From: Tubulanus polymorphus
Taxonomy: Eukaryota; Nemertea; Palaeonemertea; Tubulaniformes; Tubulanidae
Direction of reading: 5' to 3'
Assembly (NCBI RefSeq): GCF_964204645.1
Contig: NC_134027.1
Span: 23,424,485-23,488,484 of the forward strand
DNA length: 64,000 nucleotides
Shown here: piece by piece, positions 9,515 through 63,472 of the stretch
How the letters are laid out: each line of letters opens with the position of its first letter
Position numbering within the stretch: the first letter of the stretch is position 1
The notes under the pieces: model-generated
What the model was told of the DNA's origin: nothing
Databases searched by the model: none
Seen by the model: only the letters and a program-made list of their open reading frames with translations
Translations under genes and position numbers: made by a program

Positions 9515-10555
9515 ATGTTCGATAACAACATTACTAGCACAATCGCTGCATTGACAACAACTAAACTCAGCCGTTGTCAGCGGATTCAAACTCAACCATT
9601 TCAATGGACGGCTAAATTCAGTGTTCTTGTGTATTTAGGCTGGTATCTACCGGCGTCTGTGCTTGGTTTAATATTCAACTCATTCACGTTGTTAGTTCTG
9701 GAACAATTTAAATCCGATATCTATTTTCTTATCAAAATTCTCGCTTTAAACGATCTTTTGTTTATGATCGCTGCATTCATTCTTTACCCGCTGAGAACTG
9801 CGTACATTTACGCCGTTTTGGGAGATATGTTGTTTCGCGTAAGCGACTGGAATTTCGGTTGGATTTTTATCAAAGTCGCCATGCCGTTTTTCTACATGTT
9901 TCAGATGACGCGTAACTGGTGCACTATATTGCTCAGTCTAGAGCGGTTAATCGTCGTATTGTTTCCACTAAAATCTCGTAGATTTCCCAAGAGGTTGATA
10001 TCACTGTGGGCGATGATGTTTATTGTACTAGTCGCGTTAGGTGGTTTTTCAGTTTACTTGCTACCCTCCCGTCGGCTTGGATTTATGAACTGCCCCGATA
10101 ATTGGCCATTCATAACTGTTCGCAAAAAGCCCTTTCAGTACAAGGGAAAACATCTAAAGGCGTGGAACAAGCTTTCCCAGAACATTTTCTTTCTGTATCT
10201 TACTGCTACGTTTCCAATTTGCTTTTTGGTTTTCGTAAATTTAATTCTTATTTCGGCGACATTTTACCGTCGGGTCACTCGACGTTCAGAGCTCGGTGTT
10301 ACTGATGAATCGTCAAGAAGGGAAATGAAGGTTTTAAGGATGGTTGTAACAGTAGTTTTGTTGTTTATCATTTGTGAAGGTTTTGGTTTTATCGACCGTT
10401 TAATGAGTTTGGGAATCCGCAAGCTTGTTGGTATGAGACAAATAGCGTTAGGATTTTCTATCGTCGATTCTTCAGTAAACTTTATCGTGTATTGCGCTAC
10501 AAATAAAAAATTCAGGAAAGTAGCTGTCGGCATTTTAACCATGAATGCCCGATGA
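9515..10555 (+). CDS. Orphan class A GPCR, peptide-receptor-like, single exon
   Basis: A 346-aa seven-transmembrane receptor. The start is the ATG at 9515 (MFDNNITSTIAAL); the frame is open further upstream but without an ATG. An N-glycosylation site NIT lies in the short N-terminus. TM1 carries N1.50 in LGLIFNSFTLLVL; TM2 has ALNDLLFM (D2.50). TM3 ends in LSLERLIVVLFPLKS, an ERL variant of the DRY motif. TM7 reads VDSSVNFIVYCATNKKFRK, where NPxxY is NFIVY, a form common in invertebrate FMRFamide/peptide-type receptors. Helix 8 is short and basic. The ligand is not deducible. A MITE begins within about 10 bp of the stop codon, so the 3' UTR is formed by or interrupted by it. It is not closely related to the four GPCRs at 52-63 kb. 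Confidence 0.85.
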   Translation: MFDNNITSTIAALTTTKLSRCQRIQTQPFQWTAKFSVLVYLGWYLPASVLGLIFNSFTLLVLEQFKSDIYFLIKILALNDLLFMIAAFILYPLRTAYIYAVLGDMLFRVSDWNFGWIFIKVAMPFFYMFQMTRNWCTILLSLERLIVVLFPLKSRRFPKRLISLWAMMFIVLVALGGFSVYLLPSRRLGFMNCPDNWPFITVRKKPFQYKGKHLKAWNKLSQNIFFLYLTATFPICFLVFVNLILISATFYRRVTRRSELGVTDESSRREMKVLRMVVTVVLLFIICEGFGFIDRLMSLGIRKLVGMRQIALGFSIVDSSVNFIVYCATNKKFRKVAVGILTMNAR

Positions 10556-14450: not shown

Positions 14451-15881
14451 ATGGATCACCACGAGGATTTAAGCGATCTCTACGGCGGCGCCGACGACGA
14501 CGCAGGCGCCGACGAGATATCGATATACACGCGCATCTCGCTTCCCGAACTCGTCGACAAGTGCATCTTACCGACGCTGCAGCAGGCGTCGACGCACATC
14601 GTTCCGAGCGTCGTTTTGGCGACGTTGTGCAAGTTCATCAGCCACACGGTCGGCGAGGGTTTCGAGGTGACCGGTTTGTCGTTCCTGCCGCGTCAGATGA
14701 TCCACCTGACGTCGGCGTTCATGGGCGCGTTGCTGCTGCATCTGTTCTTCCAGGAGCAGATCGTGTTCGTCGCGACGCTCGCCGCGTTGTCGTATCTCGT
14801 GTTGTTGACGACGAAGTCGGCGATGCCGCGTTACTGCGGCACGGCGACCGCCGCCGCCGTCGTCGCGTTTCTGCTCGTCTGCGAGTTGTTCGTCGTTTCG
14901 AGCGCCGACTGGCACCGGATCCGCGGCGCGCAGATGATCCTCGCGATGAAAGTCATCTCGATCGGTTTCGACGTCGATCGCGGCGTGCTGATCAAAGTTC
15001 CCGGCATTTCCGAGTTCGTCGGCTATGCGTTCAACGTCGGCACGGTGATATTCGGTCCGTGGATCAGTTTCCTCGATTACATGACGATTCTGCAGCTGCG
15101 CGAGCGTAAAATGTCGTTCTACTGGATTTTCAAAATGATTCGAAGTTTCGTCGCGTCGATGCTGTGCATCATCACGTCGACGTGCGTCGTTCACTGGGTG
15201 ATCATCGAAGGCTCGTGGAAGTGGTTGATCGCGTTTCGCGACGCGCAATCGTTCCGTTTCAGCCACTACTTCGTCAGCTACCTGTCCGAGTTGACGATCA
15301 CGAGCGTCGGGCTCGGCGCGATGCGCTCGTCGAACGGCGACGTCAAGTGGGACTTCTCGGTCGCGCGGCCGACCGAGATCGAGTTCCCGCGCAGTCTCGT
15401 CGAGGTCGTCACGAACTGGAACGTGCCGATGCACCACTGGCTGAAGACGTACGTGTTCAAGACGGCGCGCGCGCTCGGTACGTTCGTCGCCGTTCTGCTG
15501 ACGTACGCGGCGAGCGCGATCCTGCACGGACTCAACTTCCAGCTCGGCGCCGTCTTGCTGTCGCTCGGGTTCTACTCGTACGTCGAGTACGTGTTGCGCG
15601 CGCGGCTGTCGACGATATTCAGCGCGTGCGTCGGCGCCAAGCGGTGTCGCGGCGATTGCGCGCACGACTACAAATCGAATTCGCCGTACGTGATATTTAC
15701 GAACGCGATGTTCGGTTGTTTGTCGGTGTTTCACCTGGCGTACCTCGGGCTGATGTTCGACAGCAGCTCTCAACAGGAGAAGGGCTACACGATGTCGCAC
15801 ACGTTGAGTAAATGGTCGGAATTAAACTACGCCAGTCACTGGGTGGCGCTTGTGTCATACGTGTTCTATTTGCTCGTATGA
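14451..15881 (+). CDS. PORCN: Protein-serine O-palmitoleoyltransferase porcupine (MBOAT), intronless
   Basis: A complete 476-aa reading frame (human PORCN is about 461 aa) with multiple hydrophobic segments. The conserved MBOAT core is clear: RGAQMILAMKVISIGFD in the middle, NWNVPMHHWLKTYVF with its invariant Asn region, then ILHGLNFQLGAVLLSLGFYS with the catalytic His in LHG. The end matches family sequence: FHLAYLGLMF and KWSELNYASHWV. Porcupine attaches palmitoleate to a conserved Wnt serine in the ER membrane, a step required for Wnt secretion and receptor binding. The start is the first ATG (ACGAGAGAATGG) followed by an acidic cytosolic N-terminus. The coding region is markedly richer in G and C (CG-rich third positions) than its flanks and has no intron, unlike the many-exon vertebrate gene; a retrogene or lineage-wide intron loss is possible. 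The frame is intact, so it is probably functional. Confidence 0.95.
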   Translation: MDHHEDLSDLYGGADDDAGADEISIYTRISLPELVDKCILPTLQQASTHIVPSVVLATLCKFISHTVGEGFEVTGLSFLPRQMIHLTSAFMGALLLHLFFQEQIVFVATLAALSYLVLLTTKSAMPRYCGTATAAAVVAFLLVCELFVVSSADWHRIRGAQMILAMKVISIGFDVDRGVLIKVPGISEFVGYAFNVGTVIFGPWISFLDYMTILQLRERKMSFYWIFKMIRSFVASMLCIITSTCVVHWVIIEGSWKWLIAFRDAQSFRFSHYFVSYLSELTITSVGLGAMRSSNGDVKWDFSVARPTEIEFPRSLVEVVTNWNVPMHHWLKTYVFKTARALGTFVAVLLTYAASAILHGLNFQLGAVLLSLGFYSYVEYVLRARLSTIFSACVGAKRCRGDCAHDYKSNSPYVIFTNAMFGCLSVFHLAYLGLMFDSSSQQEKGYTMSHTLSKWSELNYASHWVALVSYVFYLLV

Positions 15882-31300: not shown

Positions 31301-34300
31301 GTGTGTTATCAGTGCCCTTTTCTTTTAGATATGCCCCTAGAATTCTGAGAAGACCCCTAGATCTGCCCCTCATGAACATAGTTTTAGATGAGAGGGTGCC
31401 TTTCCTGGCCTACTATGGTAGCTTAACCCATTAGCACGCAGGAATTTCACTATGTAGGTTATCTAATAATCCAATGAAAAGGAGAAAATTTGGTTAAAAT
31501 CCCAGTTATGGACTTCGAAATGAATTCCGTAAATTCCTCCGATCATCCAACTATATATGTACTTTAATTTCTTCGTTTCCAGCAGGTGTGTAGGGTTCGT
31601 AAGCGTTACAAAAATCTAAATTAATCAATCAATCGAACAAATAAGAAGGGAAATGCCCTATTTCAAGATCTAATACAATCTAATTTGAAACCAATACATT
31701 TGTAACACTACACAATGATACAGACAATATCCCAAAATATATGGTTAGTTCAGTCTGGCAGACTGAACACTTGAGCCACAATGCAATGATAGTGGTGCCA
31801 AGGTAAGATTCAATCTATTAGGGAGCAGATGATAAAATTCATACCATTTCATAATTGGCGCCATCTATAGGGTTGTGTTCAATTTAGCGGATAATACAAT
31901 TCGTAATGCTACACAATGATATAGACAATATTGCCATCTATATGGTAAAGTTTGAGCGGTAAACTGATATAAATATCAGTATATCAGAGTACCTGGTAAA
32001 TGCGTGAAACCTACAGTTGATGGTAAAACAGTTTATTCTGAAATTTTTACTAAACTTCATCATCAGAGAAACAAAAAACGTTATCATTTTTCTGATGATG
32101 TTAAGTCAAAACTGTCAAAATAAATCGTTAAATCATCAACTGTGGGTTCCCTCGTTAACCCTTTCAGTGCTGACAAATCAATACCTAATAGTGCTGGAGA
32201 TAATTTGAAAATTTTTAAAAATTCCACAGTGTTTTGAATAATAGGAATACCGCTATCGTGTGTCTACACCACAGCTCGATGTATCGTTAGTTACTGGTAT
32301 TTCACTATGTTTGACAGGTGCTGCCATTTTTCAATAGAGATAATTACTAATTACTAATTACATCAATACACCGCAGTGCGGTGTACTTGCAAAATCCATC
32401 ACCGATTCATGCACCGCACTGCAATGAGTAAGTTTGATCTATAGTCGGGTTGGAGAAGATCTTATTGCATTCATTGTAGACTCAAAATCAATTCGCGGAT
32501 CGATATACATTTCACGCGACGGACAGACTTACCAAACGTCCGATTTCGAGTTATATCCTTCGTGTTTCAGAACTTCCGGACTCATGTAGTACGGCGTGCC
32601 CGTGAACGTCGACGCCATATCCGACGTTCCCATCAAAATCCTCGATATTCCGAAATCGCCGATTTTTATCATGTTATTACGAAGAAATATATTCCTAGGC
32701 AAAAAAAGAACGACTTCACATGAATATAACCAATCTGATACAGAAAATATCATTAAATATATGTAATAGGAAGTAAATATGAAATAGATATTTTTCTTAG
32801 AGAATGCCTGACCTCGTTTTAAGATCCCTGTGTAGAATACTCCTAGAAAAGAAAAAAGAAAAATATGTTGGATCCAGTTGAAATCTAATTGGGTTCTACA
32901 TGCACGGCTGCCTACTTCTGACGAGTACTTTCACTGATAACTCAAAACTTTTTTTCAGGAACATTTCAAGAAAATCGGATTGCTCGTTGTAAGATCGGCG
33001 AGGAAGATTTCATGAAAAACTATAAATGGGAAACCCGCGCTAACATAAAACCGGATATCTGATCGGCTAATAATGACATCATCGAAGCATCGAAGGGTTT
33101 CGTAGCATGGCAAGCCTCGATGCCGTCAGGTTCGAATCTCTGCTAGGGAGGATAGAGGGAAAATAAGAAAAGATTGGGACGAAATGGGAAGGGTGGAATG
33201 GGAAGACATCAAATAAAGATAATTCCAGAAAATTCAGTATTGTATATTTACTGGGAATGCATGTATTGCACAGCTAACAGCAGTTGAACGAGCCAGTCCA
33301 GAATCAACGTTTCATCGAAGGATTTTCCACTTTTATTCATTTGAGAAATTTGCACGTCTAAATCTCCACCCTACAAAAAAGAGTTAGAATCATTTGGTTT
33401 TTTGGGCTCCACATTTTTTGTAATGGGAATACAGGCTAAAATCTCAAACCAAATCAACTAAAGATTTCGCAGAAATCGATCTTGAAATACAATTGTAAAT
33501 CTTAAAATAAAACCCGGAAGTAAAACGATAGACGATACCGCGGGTTCATGTGAACACCTGCTGATTTCTGCGGCTAAACCAATCATAGAGGAGTCTTTGC
33601 CTTCTGATTGGCGAAAAGCTCATATACATTTTAACGAGGCCCTTTTTCATAATTCAGCTCCATAAGATTTAGAGAATGGATAATGCTTTAATGAATGATT
33701 TGTATGAATATATGCCCATTTGCGGAGTCAAAGAGCCTTAGCTCTGGAAACCATGTCATTTAAATTAACTCCATTTGTATAGTGTAAGGCTCAGCCTATG
33801 GCTGGCCTAAAAGATGAAGGTTTATTGAAAACACATTTGAACGTTTCCTAACAACCCCCATCAGTCATTCCGATAGCTAGTGATCTTATCGCCACTGGTA
33901 AGAGCCGCGATCACACTAGCATTTTTGGCCCAGGCCAAATTTGACCCGTGCCAAATTTTGCCCGGAACAACTGTTCACACAGGTGCCAAACGGGCCCGAG
34001 CCTGTTTGGCCCTGGCCAAATTGGTCCGACCAAAAACGTCGGACCAGGCTCGAGCCAAATTTTAGCACCAGACAAATGATTGCGTTTGAATTGCAACTGG
34101 CACCGGAAATGATCCACTTGGCTTTGTTCAGTATCGAGTGGATGGTTTGCGTGTGAACAAGCTCTCTAATAAGGCACGGGCCAAATTTGGCTCAAGCCTG
34201 AACGGTGCCAATTTGGCCCGGGCTTAATCGTGTGCGCCGTGTGATCGCGGCTGAGGTTTCATATAATCGCATCGACTTGTATCAACGTTAGGGACAACGC

Positions 34301-48499: not shown

Positions 48500-50375
48500 C
48501 TGCCACTCTCAAGGTGACGTTTGGTCTTCAGTGTCAGCTTCTCAGGTCGGCTCTAGGAGGTTGGTGTGGTGTCTTCCCCGCATTTTACTTAATGGAGCTT
48601 CCGATGATAGCAAACTCCAGGGCTTTTGGCTGTGCTGTTTGTGCCCGTGCGACGTGGCCAAATATGTTCCATCTGGCTTATTGAACTTTAAAAGAGAGTG
48701 GTTGTTCATTTTCGATGAGACTGTCGGGCCACATGTGGCCAGTAATAATCTGGAGATGGTTCCAGTGACAGGCATCTTACTTGTCGAGCGGAGATGAGCT
48801 CGTTGAGCAGCTCAATTGCTGCAGTTGTTGAGCATCACAACATATGGAGTTATAGAGACGGAGCCTTGTCTTGATGGGGATCATGGTCCGGCGGTTCCAC
48901 ATTTTTTCCAGTATGATTTGAATGCTATGTTACCGTGTGTGCATCGACGTTTGATATCTTCGATGCTACAGGGCCGATTAATTTCTTTCTGAGCCATGGT
49001 TATCTGCCACGAAGCGGTTCATTCTCTTCATTGGTTTCTCGGTTGTCTGCAAGGAACACACGTGTGAAATCTGTCTTAGTTTCGCTCATGAGTAAGTTGT
49101 GCTGTCGCTTCAATGCTTCAGCAGCAACAAGTCGAAGCTGGCCAAGGGGTTGAATCATCGGCATAAACCATTTCCATCGGGATTCCTAGCTCGGACACTG
49201 GAGGGTTGTCACGTTGAAAGTTGGTCCTAACTGAGTTCAGGGCTGCAGCAAGGTAACATGTGAAGAGAACTGGCGATAGGCTCTCTCTTGAAGTGAACCG
49301 ATAAGTCAGCTCCAGGTTTCTGAGTTTACCCTCACTCTTTATAATACTGTTATGTATTTGCTAAGAGGCAGCGAAACCCAGTCGTAGTTCATCACTGTTG
49401 CAACCGGCTTGTTGTAGGATGTCTAGCATCATTTTCTCTTGATTGTATCAAATGCACGAGACATGTATGTCGATGCCCATTTTGTCCAGCCTCGTTTAAA
49501 ACAACGTTGAGCAGTTCCTGTGAGTATGACTACAATGGTAGTGTGACGATGAGGGCCTTTCTGATGCTATTCAGCAGTTCGATCGGTCCGAAGGCTTGTT
49601 TGATTTGTAGGGCGATCGATATACCATAACCAGCTTTTGATTGTGTTCTATTCGTATGACATGTTGATGGTCCCAGCAATCTAGGTCGATATGATGTCCT
49701 CTTTCGAAAGCTAGAAGAGTTTACTGCGGATATTATCTGGTCCTGCAGCCCGGTCGTCTTGGAGCTGGGATAGGGCAGTCTTGGCCTCGTTTTCAGAGAT
49801 TGGGGTTTGCAGGGCTTCGGCTTCACCGGTGAATGGTTGGAAGAGGTTTGTCTTCGTCGTCGGTAAACTGTGGTTGTGGAACCAGGTTTTTATGTCTTCC
49901 CTTTGTCTGTGCGCATCGAGTTTCCGTCTGTGGCCTGTACTGAGGGGCGATGATGGGCTCATGGTTTTCAGCTGATTTGAAGCGCGGAACATCTTTCGGC
50001 AGTCATCGGTGGACGAGATTTTATAGGCTATTCTATCGGCTTGTTGGAAGGTTATTTCTTCCAAATGCTTGGCAATGCGTCGTAGCAGATGATGTCTCTC
50101 TCCTCAGGGCTGTATAGTCTTCACTCTAGCCGGTTTGGTAGATTTAGGAGACGCTGCTTTTTTGGTTTTTTTCTAAGAGGCCGAGTACTATAGGATCATT
50201 GCTCTGGTGGTTATTGCGGTGAAATTTTGGTTGGCCGGCAATTTTCAGCGCCGAGTTCTGCAAGCTTTTGAGAGTGGTGTTGAGGAGGACTGTGTTAGTG
50301 TCTCTGTTTGCGTTGAGACCAGTCTCATTTAGGTTGGTGGCGAGATCTTTCAAGTTAACAGATTGTAGCATGTGA
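48500..50375 (-). pseudogene. Decayed non-LTR retrotransposon (LINE) with reverse transcriptase
   Basis: Minus-strand fragments in changing frames spell a LINE reverse transcriptase in the right order: an upstream linker (ISENEAKTALSQLQDD, RAAGPDNIRSKL) near 49715-49830, the motif-A-like YMSRAFDTIKRK near 49430-49475, the catalytic motif EMVYADDSTPW with YADD encoded at 49154-49165, and a C-terminal RWNIFGHVARAQT-like segment near 48650. Many frameshifts and stops show it is dead. The endonuclease domain was not identified. The clade (RTE, CR1 or Jockey-like) cannot be decided by eye. Confidence 0.7.
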
Positions 50376-50712: not shown

Positions 50713-52440
50713 TTAAATACAAACTACTACTCACAGAAATTACTCCGATTGTATACAATTGATAACTGACAAGTTTGGTGGACATAGTAATCTCACAGCC
50801 GGCAGTTCTATATCTTAAGCGAACAGGTCACCAAAGCAAAAATTATCGACACAACGTCATACCCAAACCAAGGACAGAACCGTGTAATATTATCAACCGA
50901 ATTGCACACTTAACAGCAGTTAAGAGTTGTATAGAAGATGATGAAATGCGCATTGGTTAACCGTATAACTGAAAAATATAATCCTTTGAAATTGTTCAAA
51001 ATACAGATTGGATAGTTTAGATATTAAAGATATATTTTCACCGCACAACTTTAAACCAGCATCTGGTACTCACTAAAGGCTGAACTGAGATGACGACGTT
51101 GTTAGTAGTTCTTCAGTCCTTGTACACTGATTCCAAGAGACAAATAACACATGAATTTACGATTTGCAAAATTAGTGTTGCTAAACCATCAGAGACTGTA
51201 TTTTGCTTTTCTCCGCAAAAGCAAAAAGAAAATACATCGTATATCCGTAATGTCGTTAGAAATGAAATAATCATAGAAATGTATACAATCATATAATGAT
51301 ACACCGGTCACAATTCCCTCTTTAATCGTTAATGATAAAATGTAGTGATTGGTCCCTGGCGAGGGAAGGGTGTCCGTGCGCAATTCGAAATGCCGGATAT
51401 TGGAAAACGGATAAACACATTTTTATTTACCTTATCGAGAACCCACTGTAAGTATAATCATGGACGTATAAACTAGATTTTATACGTCCATGGTATAATA
51501 TACTTTTACTCCGAGATCGTTATGATATTAGCACTTCCAGATAATAACAGCATATTCGGGCGTGAGTACCTTATCCGATAGCGACAACCTGTTGGAATCC
51601 TAGATCGAATTATGCTCTCTCAAGACTCTGGACCCCTTTTGTAGAAAAGAAACTTCGGATTCTCCCACTCGTGGTCTTCCAATTTTGGCAAGGAGCCAAG
51701 CAACCCATCGTCATAACCGTTCACTGCCCGTTTTTGGTTACGAAATGATTCAGCGCTTATGATTCACTAATCTAAAATAATTTTGGAAACTGATTTGCTA
51801 AACTTACTTTTTCCTTCCAACCGTCCTGTCATGACGCGTAATGATTCACTCACTCCCGGGTTTCATCGTTGAATGAACAGCTTTCAAAAACTATGGAACT
51901 GTATCCTCTGTCAAATTAAACCCACAAAACTGTGGAACTGTATGCACTGTCAAATAATTCAAAGTAAACGGATATAGCGAAATCATTCTACTATTTTTCT
52001 CAGTTATAGCTAGGGAGGGCCACCCCACATATTGGGTCCGTTTTAATCCAAAAACCAACGACGGAATAGGCGGACAATTTTTACTGGCTTATTAGAATAT
52101 AACCGTTTACTACAATACAAATTTCAAACATAAAGGTTTACAGAATATTGTTGTAATTATCAAAAATCAATGAAATTGGACGGAAACAGAGGAAAACCAA
52201 CCAGATTACAATTTATTCCGCTTCTTCATGTAACGAAACACTGCAGTGACCAAACCGCCACGCAGTCACAAACCCAACTGAACAGAAATGCACGTACGTA
52301 ATGTTAAACCCGGAAATACTCAAACCAATAATCAAATACTCAGAATCACAGCAGCGAAAAGAAATCCAAAAGCTCTGAAGCAACCAACAAACCCAACGGT
52401 CCGAAACACCGGTATCAAGAGCGTTGATTTGAGGAAAGCT
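50713..52440. other. Gene-free DNA upstream of the GPCR array
   Basis: No exon recognised. CCACAGTTGTG-family scraps occur near 51895-51950. A short inverted pair ATGGACGTATAAACTAGATT / TTTATACGTCCATGG lies at about 51460-51493. Confidence 0.35.
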
Positions 52441-52548
52441 ACACACGTGGGCGTGAATAAGTCTACGTGTATCACATTGTGCAGCGACTCATTGTTCGCA
52501 GAAATCTGAATTAAAACGCACGTAAGGTTTCTATCCGGAGCGTTCGCG
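52441..52548 (+). promoter_or_regulatory. Conserved upstream module of GPCR copy 1
   Basis: Shares GTGTATCACATTGTGCAGCG, ACTCATTG, TCGCAGAAAT, AAAACGCAC and TTTCTATC in fixed order with the sequences before the other three copies, ending at the start codon. It is probably core promoter plus 5' UTR. Confidence 0.5.
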
Positions 52549-53514
52549 ATGGATTTCAACGTTTCGACGACATGCACTAGCAAACATACTACGGATTACA
52601 ATACGATATTTCAAGGGATCGTTTCACTGGTCATACTTTTCGGTAGCGGTATTTTGATAATTTTGGTCGCTACGAAGCCGGATTTGCGCACGAATTTCAC
52701 CTATTTACTGGTCAGTATGGCAGGCGCCGATCTTACGGCCGGTGTGTATATGTTGTTGGCCACTGTTGATGGTATCATCCATTCCTCCTCAAATAACGTA
52801 CCGCTTTGTTTTTTGTTGAATCTAGTTGGGACACTTTCCATTGTATCATCTTCTATTCACGTTGTCCTGATCGGTATAAACAGACATATGGCCGTCAAGT
52901 ACCCGATCAAACACAGAAAACACGCCAGTTTATACACGTACATCAGTATTTGTGTCGGATGGACGATACCAATGCTGATCACGTTGGTGCGTTGTTTGTG
53001 GATGGTAAAATCGGGATTTCTAGAAAGCGCGGATTGCTGTCATACATTCAAGGTTGGCGGAACGGCCTATATTACCACTTTTACCCTCCTACTTGCTCTA
53101 TTGGTACTTTTATTGTTGATTCTTCACGTGGACATCATTCGGCTTTTAGTGTGGAAGAGAAACCGACAGATAGCTCCCGCGATACGTTCTGGTGGTATTA
53201 CGCAATACACCATTTCACGACTGAGGAACACGATCAGAATTTCGGTTATGGTTTTCTTGTCGTTCACGATCTGCTGGATGCCGTATCTGGTGGTCGCGTG
53301 GTACATACGTCTCCAAGGCCCGAGCGACACTCTTCTATCCACGAGGTATATCGTATTTATCATCCTGTTCCTCAATTCGTCGGTCAACCCGATTATCTAT
53401 ACGATATTCAATCCCGATTTCAAGAAAGCGTTTTGGTCATTTCTGTGTTATTTGAAACATCGTCGTCAACATCGGCTGCAGCAGCAGCAGCAGCAGCAGC
53501 AGCAAGCCGCCTAA
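52549..53514 (+). CDS. Orphan class A GPCR, tandem copy 1, intronless
   Basis: 321 aa, seven hydrophobic segments. Short N-terminus with glycosylation site NVS (MDFNVSTTCTSK). TM1 has GSGILIILV, so the usual Asn 1.50 is Ser. TM2 keeps Asp 2.50 in AGADLTAGVYM. Cys 3.25 (PLCFLLNLVG) can pair with the ECL2 Cys in SADCCHTF. The DRY motif is NRH in IGINRHMAVKYPIKH. Position 3.32 is Gly, so it lacks the Asp of amine receptors. TM4 has Trp; TM5 (LLLALLVLLLLILHVD) lacks its Pro. TM6 has FTICWMPYLV, TM7 NSSVNPIIYTIFNPDF. The C-tail ends in a run of nine Gln from a CAG repeat. TM7 resembles amine and adenosine-type receptors, but the ligand is unknown; a chemoreceptor role is a guess from the array. 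AATAAA follows about 65 bp after the stop. Confidence 0.9.
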   Translation: MDFNVSTTCTSKHTTDYNTIFQGIVSLVILFGSGILIILVATKPDLRTNFTYLLVSMAGADLTAGVYMLLATVDGIIHSSSNNVPLCFLLNLVGTLSIVSSSIHVVLIGINRHMAVKYPIKHRKHASLYTYISICVGWTIPMLITLVRCLWMVKSGFLESADCCHTFKVGGTAYITTFTLLLALLVLLLLILHVDIIRLLVWKRNRQIAPAIRSGGITQYTISRLRNTIRISVMVFLSFTICWMPYLVVAWYIRLQGPSDTLLSTRYIVFIILFLNSSVNPIIYTIFNPDFKKAFWSFLCYLKHRRQHRLQQQQQQQQQAA

Positions 53515-54180
53515 ATCGAGACTATCGCTCACCCTCCATCGACTGTATTGACTACTGCTGTGAGACCATTGTATCGTAAAATAAAACTTTAAAAAACTAG
53601 TTAAACTGACTCAGGTGGAGCTTCGAAGAATTATATGAAAGTGCACCCACCAAAGACTAAAAGTTTAAGTGGAGTCCTAGGAGTTCTCCCGTAGAACATT
53701 TTCCGAAAATTAGATGCAAAGAAGAACTATTTCACGGCTTCCGGCTTAAATTTATATGCGCGTGAACACGGAAGAAATTGTTACCACATTTCCTGCAATT
53801 TGACCGACGTCAAATCTTGTTTGGCAGAGATCTAACAAAAAATGTCGCCAATTAGTGAATGTTTTCAAAATACTGGTGAAATTAGCTTTAGACCAACAAC
53901 ATCAGGTTTTATGACCTTCGTCGATGAGCGGGGAGTGTTCATTCTTCGAGCCACTTGAACCCATAACGGACCTGATAGTTTACGTTTTACTCGTTCTACC
54001 CTTAAAGTGTGTTTTGATACAAAACTGTATGTATGCTGTGTGTGTACTTTAATTTAAAACTTTCTGCCAATGTTAATCTACGGTCAATCTATGATGAATA
54101 TGAAATTCTTTATTTGATATTATTCTGTATTTCTATATAACTATGAATCAGTTTAGAATCACAATATCCGTGATAATTAA
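53515..54180. other. Duplicated 3' flank of GPCR copy 1
   Basis: Shares TGGAGCTTCGA, AAAATTAGATGCAAAGAAGA, AAAATGTCGCCAATTAGTGA-type and CTTCGTCGATGAGCGGGGAG blocks with 56430-56800 after copy 2 and, in part, with the flank of copy 4. It marks the segmental duplication and contains no gene. Confidence 0.6.
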
Positions 54181-54332
54181 GACTCGATGAGTAAAAAATC
54201 CCAAAATGTGTGAACGAATCTAAAAGGTTTATTTAAAAATTAGAAATATTTCGGATGGTTGCTACCACCCTTCTTCAGTCTAAAATGATTATTTAGATTC
54301 GTTCACATATTTTGGGATATTTTACTCATCTA
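54181..54332 (+). mobile_element. GACTCGATGAGTAAAAAA MITE, copy 2
   Basis: The left GACTCGATGAGTAAAAAATC and right GGGATATTTTACTCATC, plus GTGTGAACGAATCTAAA and TTTAGATTCGTTCACA, form inverted arms of about 40 bp around TTAGAAATATTTCGGATGG. It is the same family as 10563-10672. Confidence 0.7.
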
Positions 54333-54552
54333 TGTCACTATATTACGTTAATCAACTCTAATTCGCGTAAAGCGACCATTAAAACTGTGCAGTCTGAATA
54401 AACCACGGTTTTCATATCCACTAACACTTGTATAGGCTAATAAGGATTGCCAAAGTCGTCATCTTCTTATGATGTTGAAAAGAGAAACGAAATTTTAAAC
54501 CTGACAGACTATCAGATTCAGCTATTGAATAAGATGGTGATTTTTTAAAGAA

Positions 54553-54605
54553 ACACACACACACACACACGCACGTACGCACGCACGCACGCACACACAC
54601 ACACA
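54553..54605. repeat. Alternating purine-pyrimidine tract, 53 bp
   Basis: Uninterrupted alternation of AC, GC and GT steps (ACAC.., GCACGTACGC, ACGCACGC..). It is of the kind that can adopt Z-DNA. It lies between GPCR copies 1 and 2. Confidence 0.75.
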
Positions 54606-55011
54606 AAGTCAAAGTGGTTTTTTAATATTGGATTCTCTGAAAGTTAATTTGCCCTTTTTAAAAATTTTGTCTCAGTATAGGCTCAGAAAATGTGCCCTTT
54701 CCTTTGATGTTTTTTTCTACCTTCTAGATATATTGAGAAACGTCTTTACTACGTCTTCGCGAAGACCTAAAATTCCATGTGAATGAGGATACAGTTAGGC
54801 TATAAATAATATACAGTCAACTGCTCTTAATCCGTTTAATCCGTACGAGTGGGACCAGGCAAAACCATGGCGGACTTTTCTGCGCCTTTGTAAACACGTA
54901 GATAATTATGGCTGGAAAAGTGAAAATAGATGTTTTGAGATTTTGGGCCGCCGCACTGCACTTCTGCCTCCGACAGGCCTGTATGTACCGAGAGTGTTGA
55001 TTGGTGCTCTG

Positions 55012-55135
55012 GCGAAAGCAATGAACTTGGGCGTTAATTAGTCTACGTGTAGTACGTATCACTTTGTGTAGCGACTCTTTGCTCGCAGAAATTTAAACCG
55101 AAACGCACATAAAGTTTCTATCTGCGGCATTCGCG
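55012..55135 (+). promoter_or_regulatory. Conserved upstream module of GPCR copy 2
   Basis: Contains CTTGGGCGTTAATTAGTC, AGCGACTCTTTGCTCGCAG, AAACGCACATAAAGTTTC and GGCATTCGCG directly before ATG. The last 60 bp are nearly identical to copy 3. Confidence 0.5.
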
Positions 55136-56129
55136 ATGGATTTCAACGTTTCAACTACATGCACTACCGAACATATTACAATTTACAATACGATATTACA
55201 AGGGTTAATTTCACTGGTCATACTTTTCGGCAGTGGTATTTTGATATTTTGTGTCGTTACGAAGCCGAATTTGCGCACGAATTTCACCTATATACTGGTC
55301 AGTATGGCAGCCGCCGATCTAACGGTCGTTGTGTACATGTTGTTGCCCACTGTTGATGGTATCATCCATACCTCTTCAAGTAACGTACCGTTTAGTTTTT
55401 TGTTGCATTTAGTTGGGACACTTTCTATAATATCATCTTCTATTCACGTTGTCCTGATCGGTATAAACAGACATATGGCCGTCAAGTACCCGATCAAACA
55501 CAGAAAACACGCCAGTTTACACACGTACATCAGTATTTGTGTCGGATGGACGATGCCAATGCTGTTCACGTTGGTGCGTTGTTTGTTGATGGTAGAATCG
55601 GGATTTCTAGAAGGCGTGGAATGCTGTCATACATTCAAGGTTTACGGAACGGCCTATATTACGACTTTTACGCTCCTACTTGCTCTATTGGTACTTTTAT
55701 TGTTGATTCTTCACGTGGATATCATTAGTGTGGAAGAGAAACCGACAGATCTGATAGCGCCCAAGATACGTTGGTATTACGCACTACACCATGACACGGC
55801 TGAGGAGCACGATCCAAATTTCCGTGATGGTTTTCTTTTCGTTCACGATCTGCTGGATGCCGTATCTGATAGTCGCGTGGCACATACGTCTCCACGGCCC
55901 AAGCGACACTCTTCTATCCACGAGGTATCTCGTATTTATCATCCTGTTCCTCAATTCGTCGGTCAACCCGATTATCTATACGATATTCAATCCCGATTTC
56001 AAGAACGCGTATTCGTCAGTTCTGTGTTATTTGAAACATCGTCGTCAACATCGGCTGCAGCAGCAGCAGCAAGCCGCCCAAATCGAGACTATCGCTCACC
56101 TTCCATCGAATGCACGTACATTAATGTGA
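55136..56129 (+). pseudogene. Orphan class A GPCR, tandem copy 2, frameshifted
   Basis: Residues corresponding to TM1-TM5 are read in frame to about 55726. An 8-nt deletion relative to copies 1, 3 and 4 (CGGCTTTT lost after ATCATT) plus small nearby indels then shift the frame. TM6-TM7 and the tail (FTICWMPYLIVAWH, NSSVNPIIYTIF) remain intact in another frame up to the stop at 56127-56129. The original start frame stays open to 56140, so a 334-aa product with five receptor helices and an unrelated C-terminal 130 residues could be made. The conserved Cys 3.25 is Ser here (VPFSFLLHLVG), removing the usual disulfide. The NRH motif is kept. It is most likely a young pseudogene. Confidence 0.8.
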
Positions 56130-56157
56130 GGCCATTATAACTTGCAATAAAACTCTT

Positions 56158-56420
56158 AATAAGATAAAATCCCACTATTTACCGATTAAAAGAATTTAAA
56201 AACCAGAATTTATTTATTCAATCTAAAATATATAAAAGATACGAACGACGTCACCCGATCTCAACCTAGAGATCATCGTCTAGGGTGAGATCGAAACATC
56301 GTGTCTTTTATATATTTTAGATTGAATAAATAAATTCTGGTTTTTAAATTCTTTTAATTTGTAGATAGTGGGTTTTTATCTTATTATCCGTTCACCACGT
56401 TTGAGTGTGGTTATCGTTCT
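56158..56420. mobile_element. Foldback MITE (GATCTC..GAGATC family), copy 3
   Basis: Inserted just after the AATAAA of GPCR copy 2, splitting AATAAAACTC from AAAACTCAAACTTGTTTTAC, which are contiguous after copies 3 and 4. The arms TAAATCCCACTATTTACC-like and ATAGTGGGTTTTTATCTTA, and the inner ACCCGATCTCAACCTAGAG, match 8121-8386 and 29570-29948. Confidence 0.8.
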
Positions 56421-56892
56421 AAAACTCAAACTTGTTTTACTGACTGAGATGGAGCTTCGATTTACATGAAAGTGGACTTTTTATAAGGTGCATCCACCAA
56501 CAAACACGAAAAGTTTTATACGTCGAGTCCCAGGAGTCCTCCCGCGGAACTTTTTTTGAAAATTAAATGCAAAGAAGAACATTTAACGGCTTAGATTTAT
56601 ATGCGCGTGAAAACTGAAGAAATTTCTGCTACATTCAGTCTGTGCAATTTGACCGGCCTCGAATCATGTACGTAAGTTTGGAAGAAATCTAACAAAAAGT
56701 GTCGCCAATGAGTGACCATTTTCAAAATACTGGTCAAATTATCTTTAGGCCATCGGCATCAGGTTTGACCTTCGTCGATGAGCGGGGAGTGTTCATTCTT
56801 CGAACCCCCTAAACCCAAGGGCTTAAGATAGTTTTAAGTTTTACTCATTTACCCTTACGTAGAAAAAAAAAGGTTATGACCTTTGGTACAAA

Positions 56893-57068
56893 ACTGTAAG
56901 TAGAGTCAAACCCGCTTAATCCTGATCGGCTTCTTCCGGATTTGCGTCTTATCTGGACAATATTGTTGCAGTCCATATACAAGAAATGAATCTTAATCCA
57001 GATTTCCCGTGAACCGGATGAGTTTTGTTTGTTCCCAAATGATCCGAATTAAGCGGATTCTACTGAAT
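56893..57068. mobile_element. pogo/Tigger-like MITE (GTCAAACCCGCTTAATCC)
   Basis: The left GAGTCAAACCCGCTTAATCC and right GAATTAAGCGGATTCTACTG are inverted ends. The interior has TCCAGATTTCCCGTGAACCGG. It lies in the 3' flank of GPCR copy 2. Confidence 0.55.
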
Positions 57069-58867
57069 AAGTTGTGTGTGCACTTAAGTTTGAAACTTTC
57101 TGCCAATGTTAATCTAAATGTTAATCTATGATGAGTATAAGATTCTTTATTTGCTATTGTTCTGTGTCTATGTGACTTATATCAATCACCTAATTTTTGT
57201 TAATACGACCAGTGAAACTGTGCAGTCAGAATAAGCCAACCATTTTCTGAAAGAAAGTGGTTTTTGGTAAACCTCGGTCAAATTTGATGTTGAAACGACG
57301 GAATAGGACCGTCTTGATGATTCCATAATGGATGTAACGAACTATCGGTTGACGAACATGTTTTTATTCTGAAGTTCTTCGTAACGATATTGCACTGCAG
57401 GCCTATGTTGTAGGCCTAGTTCCACATGGCCTTGGTTTTGAAATAGATCCGGAGGTACATTATGCTCAATGAGTTATACCATGTTTAGGAACAATTGAGG
57501 GTGAGCTTATACGGTATTTCATCATCTTTGTTTCGGGTCATGCAGATCGGTGAAATCCGGGAGAAGTTCTTTAAAATCGACTAACTTAGCTTCGCAAAAA
57601 TGAATCTAGATCACTCCTACTCAAATGAGGATATATGGGGGTATGAATGAATATTAGACATCTATTCTCAAAAATTTACGATACCAGCATATCCATTCTA
57701 GTCCAGTTCAATCTTGTACCAAGTGTGATGATGACCATTTTCACATAATTAGATAATTTGATTAGCACTAATTATGCAAATGTAATTTTCATCTAAATAA
57801 CAATGCTACAGGCTTTTATATCATGTATGCATTTTGTCTGCAATATAGAAATGAAAAATATTGCTGAGATAGTGGTCATACTGAGTCAATTCAGTGAAAT
57901 TCAATTTTAAATGATTCATTGATCCACGATTGGGTCCAAAATTAAATTCAACCCTCACTATTGTGGAACTGAATCCACAATTGAATTGAACCCTTGCACT
58001 GCTGTGGAATCAAAGTAAACCCACACAATTATGGTTCTGGACCCGAGACGACAAATTAAGCCCATAAAACTGTGGAACTGGATCCAACCCTTATCTTGAA
58101 CGGGGTTCAAAATTACCGGTGGTACCGGATCCAGAGTTATCTATGCGTCAGGTAAACCCTCTTCGACAATGCGTATGCTACGTCCCGGGGACCCGTTTGA
58201 AAAAGTTTCGAGTGATTTCCAACGTTAATTGCGAGTTAGCTAAGTCGGAATAAATGATTTTTCACAGGGGAAATATTTTCCGGGATTATTTCGAGATGGT
58301 GAAGTTAAAACGAACGGGTTTTCTCGGGAAGAAATTATTTCACCGGTGCAGTTTATCCCAAATTAACTAACTGGCAGCAGTTACCCAAGGCCGTCGGAAG
58401 GGGAGGGCCGCCCCACTTATTGGGTCCCGAGGTTTTTAGTTCATTAACAACTCGTTTTTCTGCTCAGATAGCCGTATGGCCGCTTCCCGCTATAAATTGC
58501 CGGCGTCGCAGCTACGTCACGCACTTACCACGCGACCTTGGTTCAACGTTATGATGATCCATGTGCATAAAGATATACGTAGCAGAAAATCTAGATATGA
58601 AAACTACTGCGAACATTTTTGTTATAGACATTGAACACCGCCCGAGTTTGGAAAAAATTCTGGATAATTCAATGTTGATCACTTGAAAAAGTAGTTTATT
58701 TTACAGGTGAGAATTCCATTCTGGAGTAGCTCAAAATGAAATATCCTGGCTTATAAGATCGAAAAATCTTCTGGGTGAGGGCTCTTCCTTTTATGAAATT
58801 TTGGGCTACCACACTGCACTTTTCCTTCCGACAGGTCTGTAACAGGTATCAAAAGTGTTGATGGGAG
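57069..58867. other. Intergenic DNA between GPCR copies 2 and 3
   Basis: No exon recognised. It contains CCACAGTTGTG-family scraps (57960-58090). The 3.9-kb spacing between copies here is the widest in the array. Confidence 0.35.
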
Positions 58868-58987
58868 CTCGAAAACAATGAACGTGGGCGTTTATTAAAG
58901 GTGGTACGTATCAGATTGTGCAGCGACTCATTGCTCGCAGAAATTTAAACCAAAACGCACATAAAGTTTCTATCTGCGGCATTCGCG
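58868..58987 (+). promoter_or_regulatory. Conserved upstream module of GPCR copy 3
   Basis: CAGATTGTGCAGCGACTCAT, TGCTCGCAGAAATTTAAACC and AAACGCACATAAAGTTTC, then GGCATTCGCG before ATG, as in copies 1, 2 and 4. Confidence 0.5.
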
Positions 58988-59983
58988 ATGGATTTTAACG
59001 TTTCAACTACATGCACTACCGAAAATACTACAATTTGCAATATGATATTACAAGGGATCATTTCACTGGTCATACTTTTCGGCAGTGGTATTTTGATATT
59101 TTGTGTCCTTACGAAGCCGAATTTGCGCACGAATTTCACCTATTTACTGGTCAGTATGGCAGGCGCCGATCTTACGGCCGGTGTGTACATGTTGTTGGCC
59201 ACTGTTGATGGTATCATCCATTCCTCCTCAAGTAACGTACCGTTTTGTTTTTTGTTGAATCTAGTTGGGACACTTTCTGTAATATCATCTTCGGTCCACG
59301 TGGTGCTAATCGGTATAAACAGACATATGGCCGTCAAGTACCCGATCAAACACAAACAACACGCCAGATTTCCCACGTACATCAGTATTTGTGGCGGATG
59401 GACGATGTCTGTGCTGTTCACGGCGCTGCGTTGTTTTTGGTTGGTTAAATCGGGATTTCTAGAAGGCGCAGATTGCTGCCACACATTCAAGATCGGCGGA
59501 ACGGGCTATATTGCGACTTTTACGTTCATACTTGTTCTAATGGTAATTATGTTGTTGATTCTTCACGTGGACATCATTCAGCTTTTAGTGTGGAAGAGAA
59601 ACCGGCAGATAGCTCCCGCGATACGCTCTGGTATTACGCAATACACCATGACACGACTGAGGAACACGATCAGAATTTCGGTTATGGTTTTCTTGTCGTT
59701 CACGATCTGCTGGATGCCGTATCTAGTAGTCATATGGTACATACATTTCCACGGCCCGAGCGACACTCTTCTATCCACGAGGTATATTGTATATATCATC
59801 CTGTTCCTCAATTCGTTGGTCAACCCGATTATCTATACGATATTCAATCCTGATTTCAAGAAAGCGTATTCATCGGTTCTGTGTTATTTGAAACGTCGTC
59901 TGCAGAATCGGCTGCAGCAGCAGCAAGCCGCCCAAATCGAGACTATCGCTCACCCTCAAACTAATGTACGGACATTAATGTGA
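58988..59983 (+). CDS. Orphan class A GPCR, tandem copy 3, intronless
   Basis: 331 aa, intact. The motif set is as in copy 1: GSG in TM1, AGADLTAGVYM, Cys 3.25 in VPFCFLLNLVG, INRHMAVKYPIKH, ECL2 Cys in GADCCHTFK, FTICWMPYLVV and NSLVNPIIYTIFNPDF. TM5 differs most (IATFTFILVLMVIMLLILH), as do the N-terminal TM4 residues, suggesting change around the ligand pocket. The C-tail has only three Gln before AAQIETIAH. The poly(A) hexamer of copies 2 and 4 is CATAAA here. It is closest to copy 2 at the 5' end. Ligand unknown. Confidence 0.9.
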   Translation: MDFNVSTTCTTENTTICNMILQGIISLVILFGSGILIFCVLTKPNLRTNFTYLLVSMAGADLTAGVYMLLATVDGIIHSSSSNVPFCFLLNLVGTLSVISSSVHVVLIGINRHMAVKYPIKHKQHARFPTYISICGGWTMSVLFTALRCFWLVKSGFLEGADCCHTFKIGGTGYIATFTFILVLMVIMLLILHVDIIQLLVWKRNRQIAPAIRSGITQYTMTRLRNTIRISVMVFLSFTICWMPYLVVIWYIHFHGPSDTLLSTRYIVYIILFLNSLVNPIIYTIFNPDFKKAYSSVLCYLKRRLQNRLQQQQAAQIETIAHPQTNVRTLM

Positions 59984-61203
59984 GACCATTATATCTTACA
60001 TAAAAACTCAAACTTGTTTTACTGCTTCGAATTGTATAGAAGTGAACTTTTTACAACGTGCACATAATATGTACTTATGATTTATTTGGGGTAGACATTT
60101 GTAGGGGCCTTCAATTTAGGTGGGGAGCGGGGTCCGGACCCCTCTAAATCTGCCCCTTGATAGATATGAATATCTACGTTCGGTATTATTCTATTTTTGT
60201 ATGTATTCTCTATGACTGTATGTTAATCGTTTGAAGTCTTAAACAATTGGCATAATGAACAACTAAACTGACTTAATGAACAACTAAACTGACTTACTAC
60301 TAGTTACTAACTTTATATCAACCCATTATAATAATTACATTTATCTTATGATCATTAAAGTCATCATTATAACTTATCATAGTTAATATGACTATAACAA
60401 TTATAGTTATCTAATGACTATAACACTTATAGTTACGTATCTAATGACTATATAGCAATCATGGTTATCTAACAAAGATGGAGTAGACTCCGCCTTGATC
60501 CGGTAATCTGTTCGATTCGGTGAAATAAAAATAAGATTTCCATTCATCCAATCACCCAGCCATCAATCCCCGAGTAACCATATGTATAACAATCTAACAA
60601 TCAACAATCTAATCTGAGGAGTTAACAGTATGCTAAGTTTATTATCCTTGCTCAGCTGACATAAACGTACATTATATGGTTCTTTATATTCTAAGATCGC
60701 TGTGGAACTGTATAGCCTACCTGTATAGACTACTTGTTTCTAAAAATTTTTGAAAGTGAAGTTTGAAATATATAATACATATACATCGAGGAAAACCATC
60801 TGAATTGTTTTTTTTTTGTATAACGATGATGTATTTTTAATAAAAGATTTTCCTTTATTTTCTTTGGAAAAAACTCTCAGTAAGTATACGTTTAATCGGT
60901 TTTCATCTCGGGATGTTGTAATCGGATCCAAAAATCGAAATTTTGCTTACAAATGAGGTTGTAACTTGAACACGTACGTCATGCAATCCACTATATTCAT
61001 GTGCAAGATGTAGCTTGATCATGCGGCTAAAATCTGTTGGAAATGGAATTTTGAAAGTTTCGTTGATTTTAAGAGAAATCGACGAATTTGTGGCGATTTT
61101 TAAGAAATCTGCCGCAGCCAATCAATGTAAGGGCATATTCGATTATACGACACAGACAAACCGGTCAATTAATCTGCTCGAATATTCGTGAGCCATTTTG
61201 TAG
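59984..61203. other. Intergenic DNA after GPCR copy 3
   Basis: The first ~80 bp match the shared GPCR 3' flank. Near 60265-60300 a GACTTAATGAACAACTAAACT-type unit is repeated, and 60360-60470 has repeated TAACTATAA/TCTAATGACTATAA words. No gene seen. Confidence 0.4.
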
Positions 61204-61419
61204 GATTTGCTTTCTCATTTCCCAGTCATTGGACAGTCTTATTATGAGTTTATTTTAAATTTGATAGTCGTCGTATTGATTCCGCCTATTCTATTATGCA
61301 AAAATCGGCGATTCAATCGATACGCTACATCGTCGACGCGCGCACAATCGAATCGGCCCAAACCCGACGCCGCGCTGATTGACATTACTAGACCGCTATT
61401 AGATTTTCTATCGGTTTAG
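61204..61419 (+). CDS. Possible terminal exon of an unidentified membrane protein
   Basis: After a splice-acceptor-like TTTTGTAG the frame reads 71 codons to TAG with no internal ATG start: a hydrophobic helix (YYEFILNLIVVVLIPPILL) followed by a polar, basic tail (NRRFNRYATSSTRAQSNRPK) and a short end (LIDITRPLLDFLSV). The last part has coding-like GC-rich codons. No upstream exon was found, so it may be an orphan exon, a retained fragment or chance. Family not recognised. Confidence 0.3.
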   Translation, partial: DLLSHFPVIGQSYYEFILNLIVVVLIPPILLCKNRRFNRYATSSTRAQSNRPKPDAALIDITRPLLDFLSV

Positions 61420-61920
61420 CGTTTATTTTACGAAGTAAGCAATTATTCATAACATAGAGTACTGATGATATTCATTAGCCCCACAATTCATTCCGCATCC
61501 CATTGATCCCACATCTCATTAGTCCGCAACGTCTCAATGGTCCCACAATTTCTTCATTTGACTTACTATGCGCCCGAGATATAAAGATCCGAGGATCTCT
61601 TGGTTTCAGCTTGGAGTAATCATTTATTACACCAAGGTTTCAGTTAGTGGTCAGTCTACCCTGACTCGTAGCTAAATTAAACTTTGAAGAAAGGTAAGAG
61701 TTTGTAAACGGTTTTTGAATAAATTTATTTTCTATTATGTACATGATTTATAATTCGACATAATCTGTTCTTGTTGATTTAATGAAAACTTTTGTATGCC
61801 GATCTTATTGCGTCATTTTTTGGTAATTAAAACCACACAACTGTGGATCGGAATGATCTACGTAGTTTTCTCAGGTTTATTCAGGGTAAGCCAAATCTGA
61901 TTAAACTATAGGCTCTGTCG
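61420..61920. other. Gene-free DNA
   Basis: A short tract of TCATTAGTCC / CCACAATTC / CCCACATCTC repeats near 61470-61550 and nothing else recognised. Confidence 0.35.
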
Positions 61921-62049
61921 CAGTTCAGTTCAGTTCAGTTTCAGTTTATTGCTCCGAAATTAATACTTAATGCACAGAACACAGAGTAGTTTACAAAATA
62001 ATAACAATCAAATAATACATTTTTGATACAAAAAAAATAATACAGGATG
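61921..62049 (-). mobile_element. LINE/SINE 3'-tail-like fragment
   Basis: Tandem CAGTT units (AGTTCAGTTCAGTTCAGTTT) lead into TTTATTGCTCCGAAATTAAT and an A-rich end. Probably a 5'-truncated retroposon on the minus strand, as at 5483 and 36716. Confidence 0.4.
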
Positions 62050-62344
62050 GAATATCATGACTTTAAACATATGATAATAAACCATTTTTAACGAATAATG
62101 CTAAAGTACTCAAGGCTTTACCTTTAGAATTTAGAAGGCGTGCGAATTGGCCTGGTAATCTCCAAATCACACTTAATCGCAATTAAGCGTCATTTTCTAG
62201 GTTTGATCTTGGAGTAATCATTTGTCAAATGATTACTCCAAGGTTTGATCCAGTTAGATCTCGGTCGGATAAACGAGTGCTCACAGTTGTACTAGTAACT
62301 AGCAGTGGTTTCCAGCATCAAATGTGTTAAGTGGTGCTCTGAGA

Positions 62345-62464
62345 TTAGCGAAGAATGAGGGTGTTAATTACTTAACGTGTATCATCATCACATCACGAAG
62401 CGACTCATTGCTTTCAGAAGCCTGAATAAAAACGCACATAAAGTTTCTACCTGTGACGCTCGCA
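62345..62464 (+). promoter_or_regulatory. Conserved upstream module of GPCR copy 4
   Basis: The most diverged of the four: TTAACGTGTATCATC, AGCGACTCATTGCTTTCAG, AAAACGCACATAAAGTTTC and GACGCTCGCA before ATG. Confidence 0.45.
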
Positions 62465-63472
62465 ATGGATTTCAACGTTTCGACGACATGCGCTGCCGAA
62501 CATATAATAGTTTCTCATATCATATTTCAAGGGATCATTTCACTGGTCATACTTTTCGGTAGCGGTATTTTGATAATTTTGGTCGTTACGAAGCCGAATT
62601 TGCGCACGAATTTCACCAATTTACTGGTCAGTATGGCAGGCGCCGATCTTGCGGTCGGTGTGTACATGTTGTTGGCCGCTGTTGATGGTATCATCCATTC
62701 CACCACAAGTGATGCACCCTTTTGTTTTTGGTTGCATTTAGTTGGGACACTTTCTCTTATATCATCTTCTACTCACGTAATGCTGATCGGTATAAACAGA
62801 CATATGGCCGTCAAGTACCCCATCAAACACAGAAAACACGCCAGATTATCCACGTACATCAGTATTTGTGTCGGATGGACGGTATCTTTTCTGTTCACGT
62901 TGTTGCGTTGTTTGTGGATGGTAAAATCGGGATTTCTAGAAGGCAAAGATTGCTGTCAAAAGTTCAGGATGGGTGGAACGGCCTATATTACGACTGTTAC
63001 GCTCCTACTTGCTCTATTGGTACTTTTATTGTTGATTCTTCACGTGGATATCATTCGGCTTTTAGTGTGGAAGAGAAACCGACAGATAGCGCCCGCGATA
63101 CGTTCTGGTATCCGGCATTACATTATTACACAACTGAGGAACACGATCAGAATTTCGGTGATGATTTTCTTTTCGTTCACGATCTGCTGGATGCCGTATC
63201 TGGTAGTCGCGTGGTACACACATTTCTACGGCTCGAGCGACACTATTCGATCCATGAGCTACAGTGTAGTTATCATCCTGTACCTCAATTCACTGGTCAA
63301 CCCGATTATCTATACGATATTCAATCCCGATTTCAAGAAAGCGTTTTGGTCAGTTCTGTGTTATTTGAAACGTCGTCGTCAGCGTCGGCTGCAGCAGGTG
63401 CAAGCCGCCCAAATCGGGACTATCACCGACCTTCCATCAAACGTACAGACTTTTAATGTGAGGCCATTATAA
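62465..63472 (+). CDS. Orphan class A GPCR, tandem copy 4, intronless
   Basis: 335 aa from the ATG at 62465 (MDFNVSTTCAAEH); upstream codons are open but lack an ATG, and the other copies start at the same place. GSG in TM1, AGADLAVGVYM, Cys 3.25 in APFCFWLHLVG, INRHMAVKYPIKH, ECL2 Cys in GKDCCQKFRM, FTICWMPYLVVAWY and NSLVNPIIYTIFNPDF are present. The C-tail CAG run is reduced to QQVQAA, and the end (TFNVRPL) differs from copy 3 (RTLM) by a small shift. AATAAA follows about 10 bp after the stop. It is the most diverged copy, probably the oldest split. Ligand unknown. Confidence 0.9.
   Translation: MDFNVSTTCAAEHIIVSHIIFQGIISLVILFGSGILIILVVTKPNLRTNFTNLLVSMAGADLAVGVYMLLAAVDGIIHSTTSDAPFCFWLHLVGTLSLISSSTHVMLIGINRHMAVKYPIKHRKHARLSTYISICVGWTVSFLFTLLRCLWMVKSGFLEGKDCCQKFRMGGTAYITTVTLLLALLVLLLLILHVDIIRLLVWKRNRQIAPAIRSGIRHYIITQLRNTIRISVMIFFSFTICWMPYLVVAWYTHFYGSSDTIRSMSYSVVIILYLNSLVNPIIYTIFNPDFKKAFWSVLCYLKRRRQRRLQQVQAAQIGTITDLPSNVQTFNVRPL

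Follow-up and report, generated by a model that had tools for sequence, protein, structure and literature searches.

A small family of orphan single-exon class A receptors with local duplication, a probable pseudogene, and an altered core

On balance we favor, by a little, the view that the four homologous receptor loci on the + strand of the window (the whole stretch of 64,000 nucleotides that was analyzed, positions 23424485-23488484 of contig C3 in an animal genome of 267.8 Mb and 77 contigs) belong to an orphan family of single-exon class A receptors that has undergone local duplication and pseudogenization and that is probably chemosensory. The feature looks real but modest, an ordinary lineage-specific expansion of orphan receptors whose headline motif is older and commoner than had been thought. 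A tandem array of four receptors had been predicted here, and homologous loci do start at window positions 52549, 55136, 58988, and 62465; however, the second is broken, and the array comprises five, the last of them at C3:23493179 (window position ~68695), just beyond the window. When the genome was searched with copy 1 as the query, the family came to eight loci, six of them intact: besides the array there are a further C3 copy 0.78 Mb upstream of it (C3:22692702) and two copies on another chromosome (C11:9584721 and C11:9588151), one of which is intact. One C11 copy has one A too many within a run of As, either a true frameshift or an error. The traits of a lineage-specific expansion (a tandem arrangement, a single-exon coding region, and a clade formed by paralogues only, with a pseudogene among its members) are all present within this genome; it is the shared odd core, taken as the hallmark of that family, that has lost weight.

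The intact window copies, copy 1 (52549-53514, +), copy 3 (58988-59983, +), and copy 4 (62465-63472, +), are class A receptor ORFs of 321, 331, and 335 amino acids, respectively, with 75-81% protein identity among them. The C-terminal tail of copy 1 is shortened by a TAA at the site of a CAA in the other copies. Copy 2 (55136-56129, +) is most likely a pseudogene, judging by its disrupted frame. Nucleotide alignment with the other copies shows that its ICL3 coding region has lost 8 bp at one point and 5 bp at another and has gained 5 bp at a third; TM1-5 run in one frame to ~55771, TM6-7 lie in another (55758-56129), and the long ORF at 55136-56140 lacks CWxP and NPxxY. In addition, Cys3.25 is Ser. 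Because there are several separate indels, a base-calling error is unlikely. CWxP and NPxxY had been thought to be kept in all four copies; this holds for the three intact ones, which read CWMP in TM6 and NPIIY in TM7, but in copy 2 TM6-TM7 are out of frame.

How did the copies arise? A homologous unit common to all of them (52434-53595, +, at copy 1) spans ~110-150 bp before the ATG to ~30-80 bp past the stop codon and ends near an AATAAA. Homology that stops near a polyadenylation signal could point to retroposition of each copy, a candidate that we rejected: flanks are shared by copies 1 and 2, by the pair c5/c6, and by the C11 pair, and for this reason we prefer DNA-level duplication with later decay. 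For example, the downstream flank of copy 1 (53594-54004, +) is 76% identical to positions 56428-56857 downstream of copy 2, and we take these two copies to be a tandem segmental duplication. Similarly, a stretch of ~1.8 kb matches at 94% between the C3:22.69 Mb and C3:23.49 Mb copies, which share further blocks as well, and the C11 pair is similar well into the flanks. Directly after copy 2 there is a 230-bp inverted-repeat element (56157-56386) with 88-nt arms that are 94% complementary.

The predicted intronless state stands as far as the coding part goes, which in each intact copy is a single ORF. A CAG at 52499-52501 (+), 47 nt upstream of the copy 1 ATG and conserved at eight of eight loci, is a possible 3' splice site and leaves room for a 5'-UTR intron in the family genes. 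Single-exon coding is ordinary for class A genes here, the sister genes included, because most of the 7tm_1 matches listed in the genome search, in which 147 of 2676 first-look candidates were scored, sit in one open frame, aminergic-type genes among them.

What kind of receptor does the family encode? Pfam 7tm_1 matches the intact window copies at 85.7-92.7 bits (E 5e-24 to 4e-26; cut-off 30.5). The nematode Srsx profile (PF10320) also matches the family above its cut-off, at ~49-55 bits, but we rejected Srsx membership: the family scores better against 7tm_1, and within this genome Srsx also picks up aminergic, peptide-type, and melatonin-type genes (39-50 bits). To assign residue positions, the proteins were aligned with 39 other single-ORF class A genes and 10 melatonin-type genes, all from this genome. 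Retained in the intact members are D2.50 (as predicted), C3.25, S3.39, R3.50, W4.50, F6.44, W6.48, P6.50, N7.45, N7.49, P7.50, and Y7.53; D2.50, R3.50, W4.50, CWxP, and NPxxY are present in six of six, and copy 2 fails. Because these core residues are kept, the intact proteins are most likely working 7TM receptors, which would fold as such and activate G protein on ligand binding.

The intact members depart from the class A pattern at 1.50 (Ser), 3.49 (Asn), 5.50 (Leu, Met, or Ser), 5.58 (His), and 6.30 (Leu), and position 3.51 is His in the C3 copies (NRH) and Tyr in the C11 copies (NRY). The original prediction was right about NRH in place of DRY in the window copies and about the missing TM5 proline, for which the alignment gives the residues listed at 5.50. 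It also read GSG at position 1.50; N1.50 is indeed changed, but by alignment GS replaces GN and Ser33 is residue 1.50. The absence of Asp3.32 likewise stands, with Gly or Ala at this position, but it does not count as the loss of a canonical residue: Asp3.32 is the ligand anchor of aminergic receptors, not a general class A residue, and 19 of the 39 other class A genes sampled also lack it. With the exception of one gap, Asn occupies 1.50 in all of those 39 genes (38/39), and the 10 melatonin-type genes and the two sister genes have Asn there without exception. The acidic residue at 3.49, P5.50, and Y5.58 vary among the other class A genes of the genome, and 1.50 does not; Ser1.50 is the rarest change of the family, and the truly family-specific changes are N1.50 to Ser and His5.58. 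Structure prediction had been suggested as a further check. AlphaFold2 was run on the three intact window proteins and gave a mean pLDDT of 39.7, too low for a comparison of pocket or fold.

A neutral residue at 3.49 is by no means confined to the array. Among 79 further class A genes of this genome, a count by eye gave 49 with D at 3.49, 17 with E, 10 with N, and 3 with H; the 79 include one identical pair, and one of them is also among the 39 aligned genes. All ten genes with Asn3.49 are melatonin-type, as judged by ICL2 and by the tree. The nearest paralogue outside the family, C6:9659122, is ~32% identical to it and shares Asn3.49, Leu6.30, and a single exon; unlike the family, it is a single-copy gene with Tyr3.51 (hence NRY), a normal N1.50, the TM5 proline, and Asn5.58. 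The next relative, a gene on C2 that is also single-copy, reads HRF. Since the C6 and C11 genes read NRY and the C2 gene reads HRF, the loss of the acid most likely predates the array, and of this motif His3.51 alone is specific to the C3 copies. The idea that a shared unusual core marks a young chemoreceptor family is weakened accordingly, as Asn3.49 occurs in an old single-copy paralogue and in at least 10 melatonin-type receptors. A normal DRY in most relatives had been named as the finding that would make this an ordinary family with a local change; within this genome, the nearest relatives lack DRY. The family offers a small natural series, from relatives with an acidic 3.49 through NRY (C6, C11) to NRH (the tandem copies), that would be useful for studying class A function without the acidic lock.

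Could the family have split off from the melatonin-type (NRY) branch and evolved rapidly, inheriting its neutral 3.49 and perhaps recognizing an indole or another internal signal? We regard this as rather improbable. The genome does hold at least 10 single-exon NR[YF] receptors of melatonin type, for one of which the top solved matches include GPR50 and MT1, and the C6 and C11 genes read NRY. MT1, MT2, GPR50, and the melatonin-type genes here resemble the family in combining Asn3.49 with a retained R3.50, and the melatonin-type genes of this genome resemble it also in being single-exon. In contrast to melatonin receptors, the family has Ser1.50, His5.58, and, in the C3 copies, NRH; it lacks the TM5 proline, and the melatonin-type ICL2 signature CxHxxYxKIY is missing from it. 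Among solved receptors, the family and the C6 gene match aminergic, histamine, LPA, and peptide receptors best and melatonin receptors less well, so that MT1, MT2, or GPR50 is not the best solved match of the family. In the free tree of genes from this genome, the six intact members form a clade with 100/100 support, which the C6 gene joins at 98/77 and the C2 gene at 100/100, and the melatonin-type genes fall into a separate clade. Constraining the family, C6, C2, and the melatonin-type genes to group together costs 1.24 log-likelihood units (p-AU 0.47), but joining the family, C6, and the melatonin-type genes without C2 comes near rejection, with a borderline p-AU of 0.059. A distant tie to the melatonin branch is compatible with these trees and disfavored by the solved-structure matches. 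The melatonin-type genes are an expansion in their own right, larger than the array family and spread over C1, C2, C3, C4, and C11; two of them adjoin on C2 (30025619 and 30027068).

What would the altered core do? In the family, R3.50 lacks both of its usual acidic partners (3.49 is Asn and 6.30 is Leu), and the original prediction pointed out that loss of the acidic 3.49 often raises basal activity in known receptors. High basal activity is unsupported here. NRY is the normal, wild-type motif of the human melatonin receptors MT1 and MT2 (PMC2904695), and in the thromboxane receptor neutralization of E3.49 and E6.30 left basal activity low and unchanged and raised agonist potency (PMC3610872); the 3.49 motif alone is therefore no predictor of constitutive signaling. 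That the changed core makes these proteins constitutively active, ligand-independent signalers is very improbable, in spite of non-acidic residues at both 3.49 and 6.30 and the further changes at 5.58 and 1.50: the two cited receptors speak against it, as does the extracellular side of the family, which is non-degenerate. We consider it highly unlikely, too, that the rebuilt cytoplasmic lock (Asn3.49, His3.51, Leu6.30, His5.58, and Ser1.50, with R3.50 and Y7.53 kept) constitutes a different activation switch, for example one worked by protonation of the two histidines on the cytoplasmic side. We propose that these receptors would stay inactive without the salt bridges that R3.50 usually forms, as do receptors that are naturally NRY.

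Selection on the family appears to be relaxed but purifying, a constraint that is weak but real. Neighboring copies differ at dN ~0.11-0.13, dN/dS is 0.42-0.78 between C3 copies and 0.32-0.44 between C3 and C11 copies, and the bootstrap ranges of dN/dS exclude 1 for most pairs tested, with the exception of c1-c4 and c5-c6. Variable residues are richer in the extracellular half (64 of 131, versus 49 of 172 in the intracellular half; p = 3e-4), the two halves having been delimited by hand with the motifs as guides. We considered diversifying selection on the extracellular residues as the cause and rejected it, since synonymous divergence is also higher in that half and omega is alike in the two halves (0.56 extracellular and 0.47 intracellular, with overlapping ranges), a comparison in which no diversifying selection was detected.

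We propose that the family grew by local tandem duplication, together with moves to a second C3 site and to C11, and that members may have been lost by frameshift; the two broken copies among eight count in favor of this birth-and-death reading. The likeliest role is a chemosensory one, and the ligands would be small external or diffusible cues. This proposal draws on the pattern of known systems. In Aplysia californica, the AcCRb set has 38 members, class A genes that lack introns, lie in clusters, and read ERC in place of DRY; it belongs to a group of subfamilies expressed in chemosensory organs, the rhinophore and oral tentacle (PMC2700072). Like the present family, AcCRb genes are intronless, class A, and clustered in the genome, R3.50 is kept between changed neighbors, and the proteins are of comparable length (319-364 amino acids) and identity (43-92%) (PMC2700072); unlike it, they number 38 and have an acidic 3.49 in their ERC, and the likeness drawn here is one of pattern. 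Similarly, tandem candidates for rhodopsin-like olfactory receptors are found in the crown-of-thorns starfish (PMC5442662). By analogy with these two systems, a chemosensory role is probable. Counting against it are the number of loci, eight being small for a chemoreceptor expansion, and the similar omega of the extracellular and intracellular halves. Receptors for an internal neuropeptide or transmitter, locally duplicated and non-chemosensory, would be an unlikely alternative: the sister genes on C6 and C2 are single-copy, as is usual for internal-signal receptors, and the solved matches are generic, but local duplication with pseudogenes and high divergence would be unusual for the receptors of one conserved peptide. 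The family adds one more case of local birth and death among invertebrate single-exon receptors, a pattern that is already well known.

Finally, we note several other features of the window and the genome. Receptor genes often stand in tandem groups here; the 7tm_1 search found other clusters of similar single-ORF class A genes at C9:11456041-11485656, C1:8138805-8162805, and C2:4103451-4111687. In the window, positions 9515-10555 (+) hold a single-ORF class A-like receptor with a very long branch (7tm_1, 36.7 bits) that reads ERL at TM3 and NFIVY for NPxxY. A partial protein kinase match at 32532-32930 (-) and a partial Cu2_monooxygen match at 2376-2738 (+) both look like single exons, and the neighboring genes therefore appear to be intron-bearing. 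An ORF at 49711-50103 (-), for which the Pfam search gave no match, contains a DDRAAGPDNI stretch that we take to resemble the reverse transcriptase of a non-LTR retrotransposon. Lastly, positions 14451-15881 (+) encode, in a single ORF, a 476-amino-acid MBOAT protein (PF03062), which presumably resembles Porcupine.
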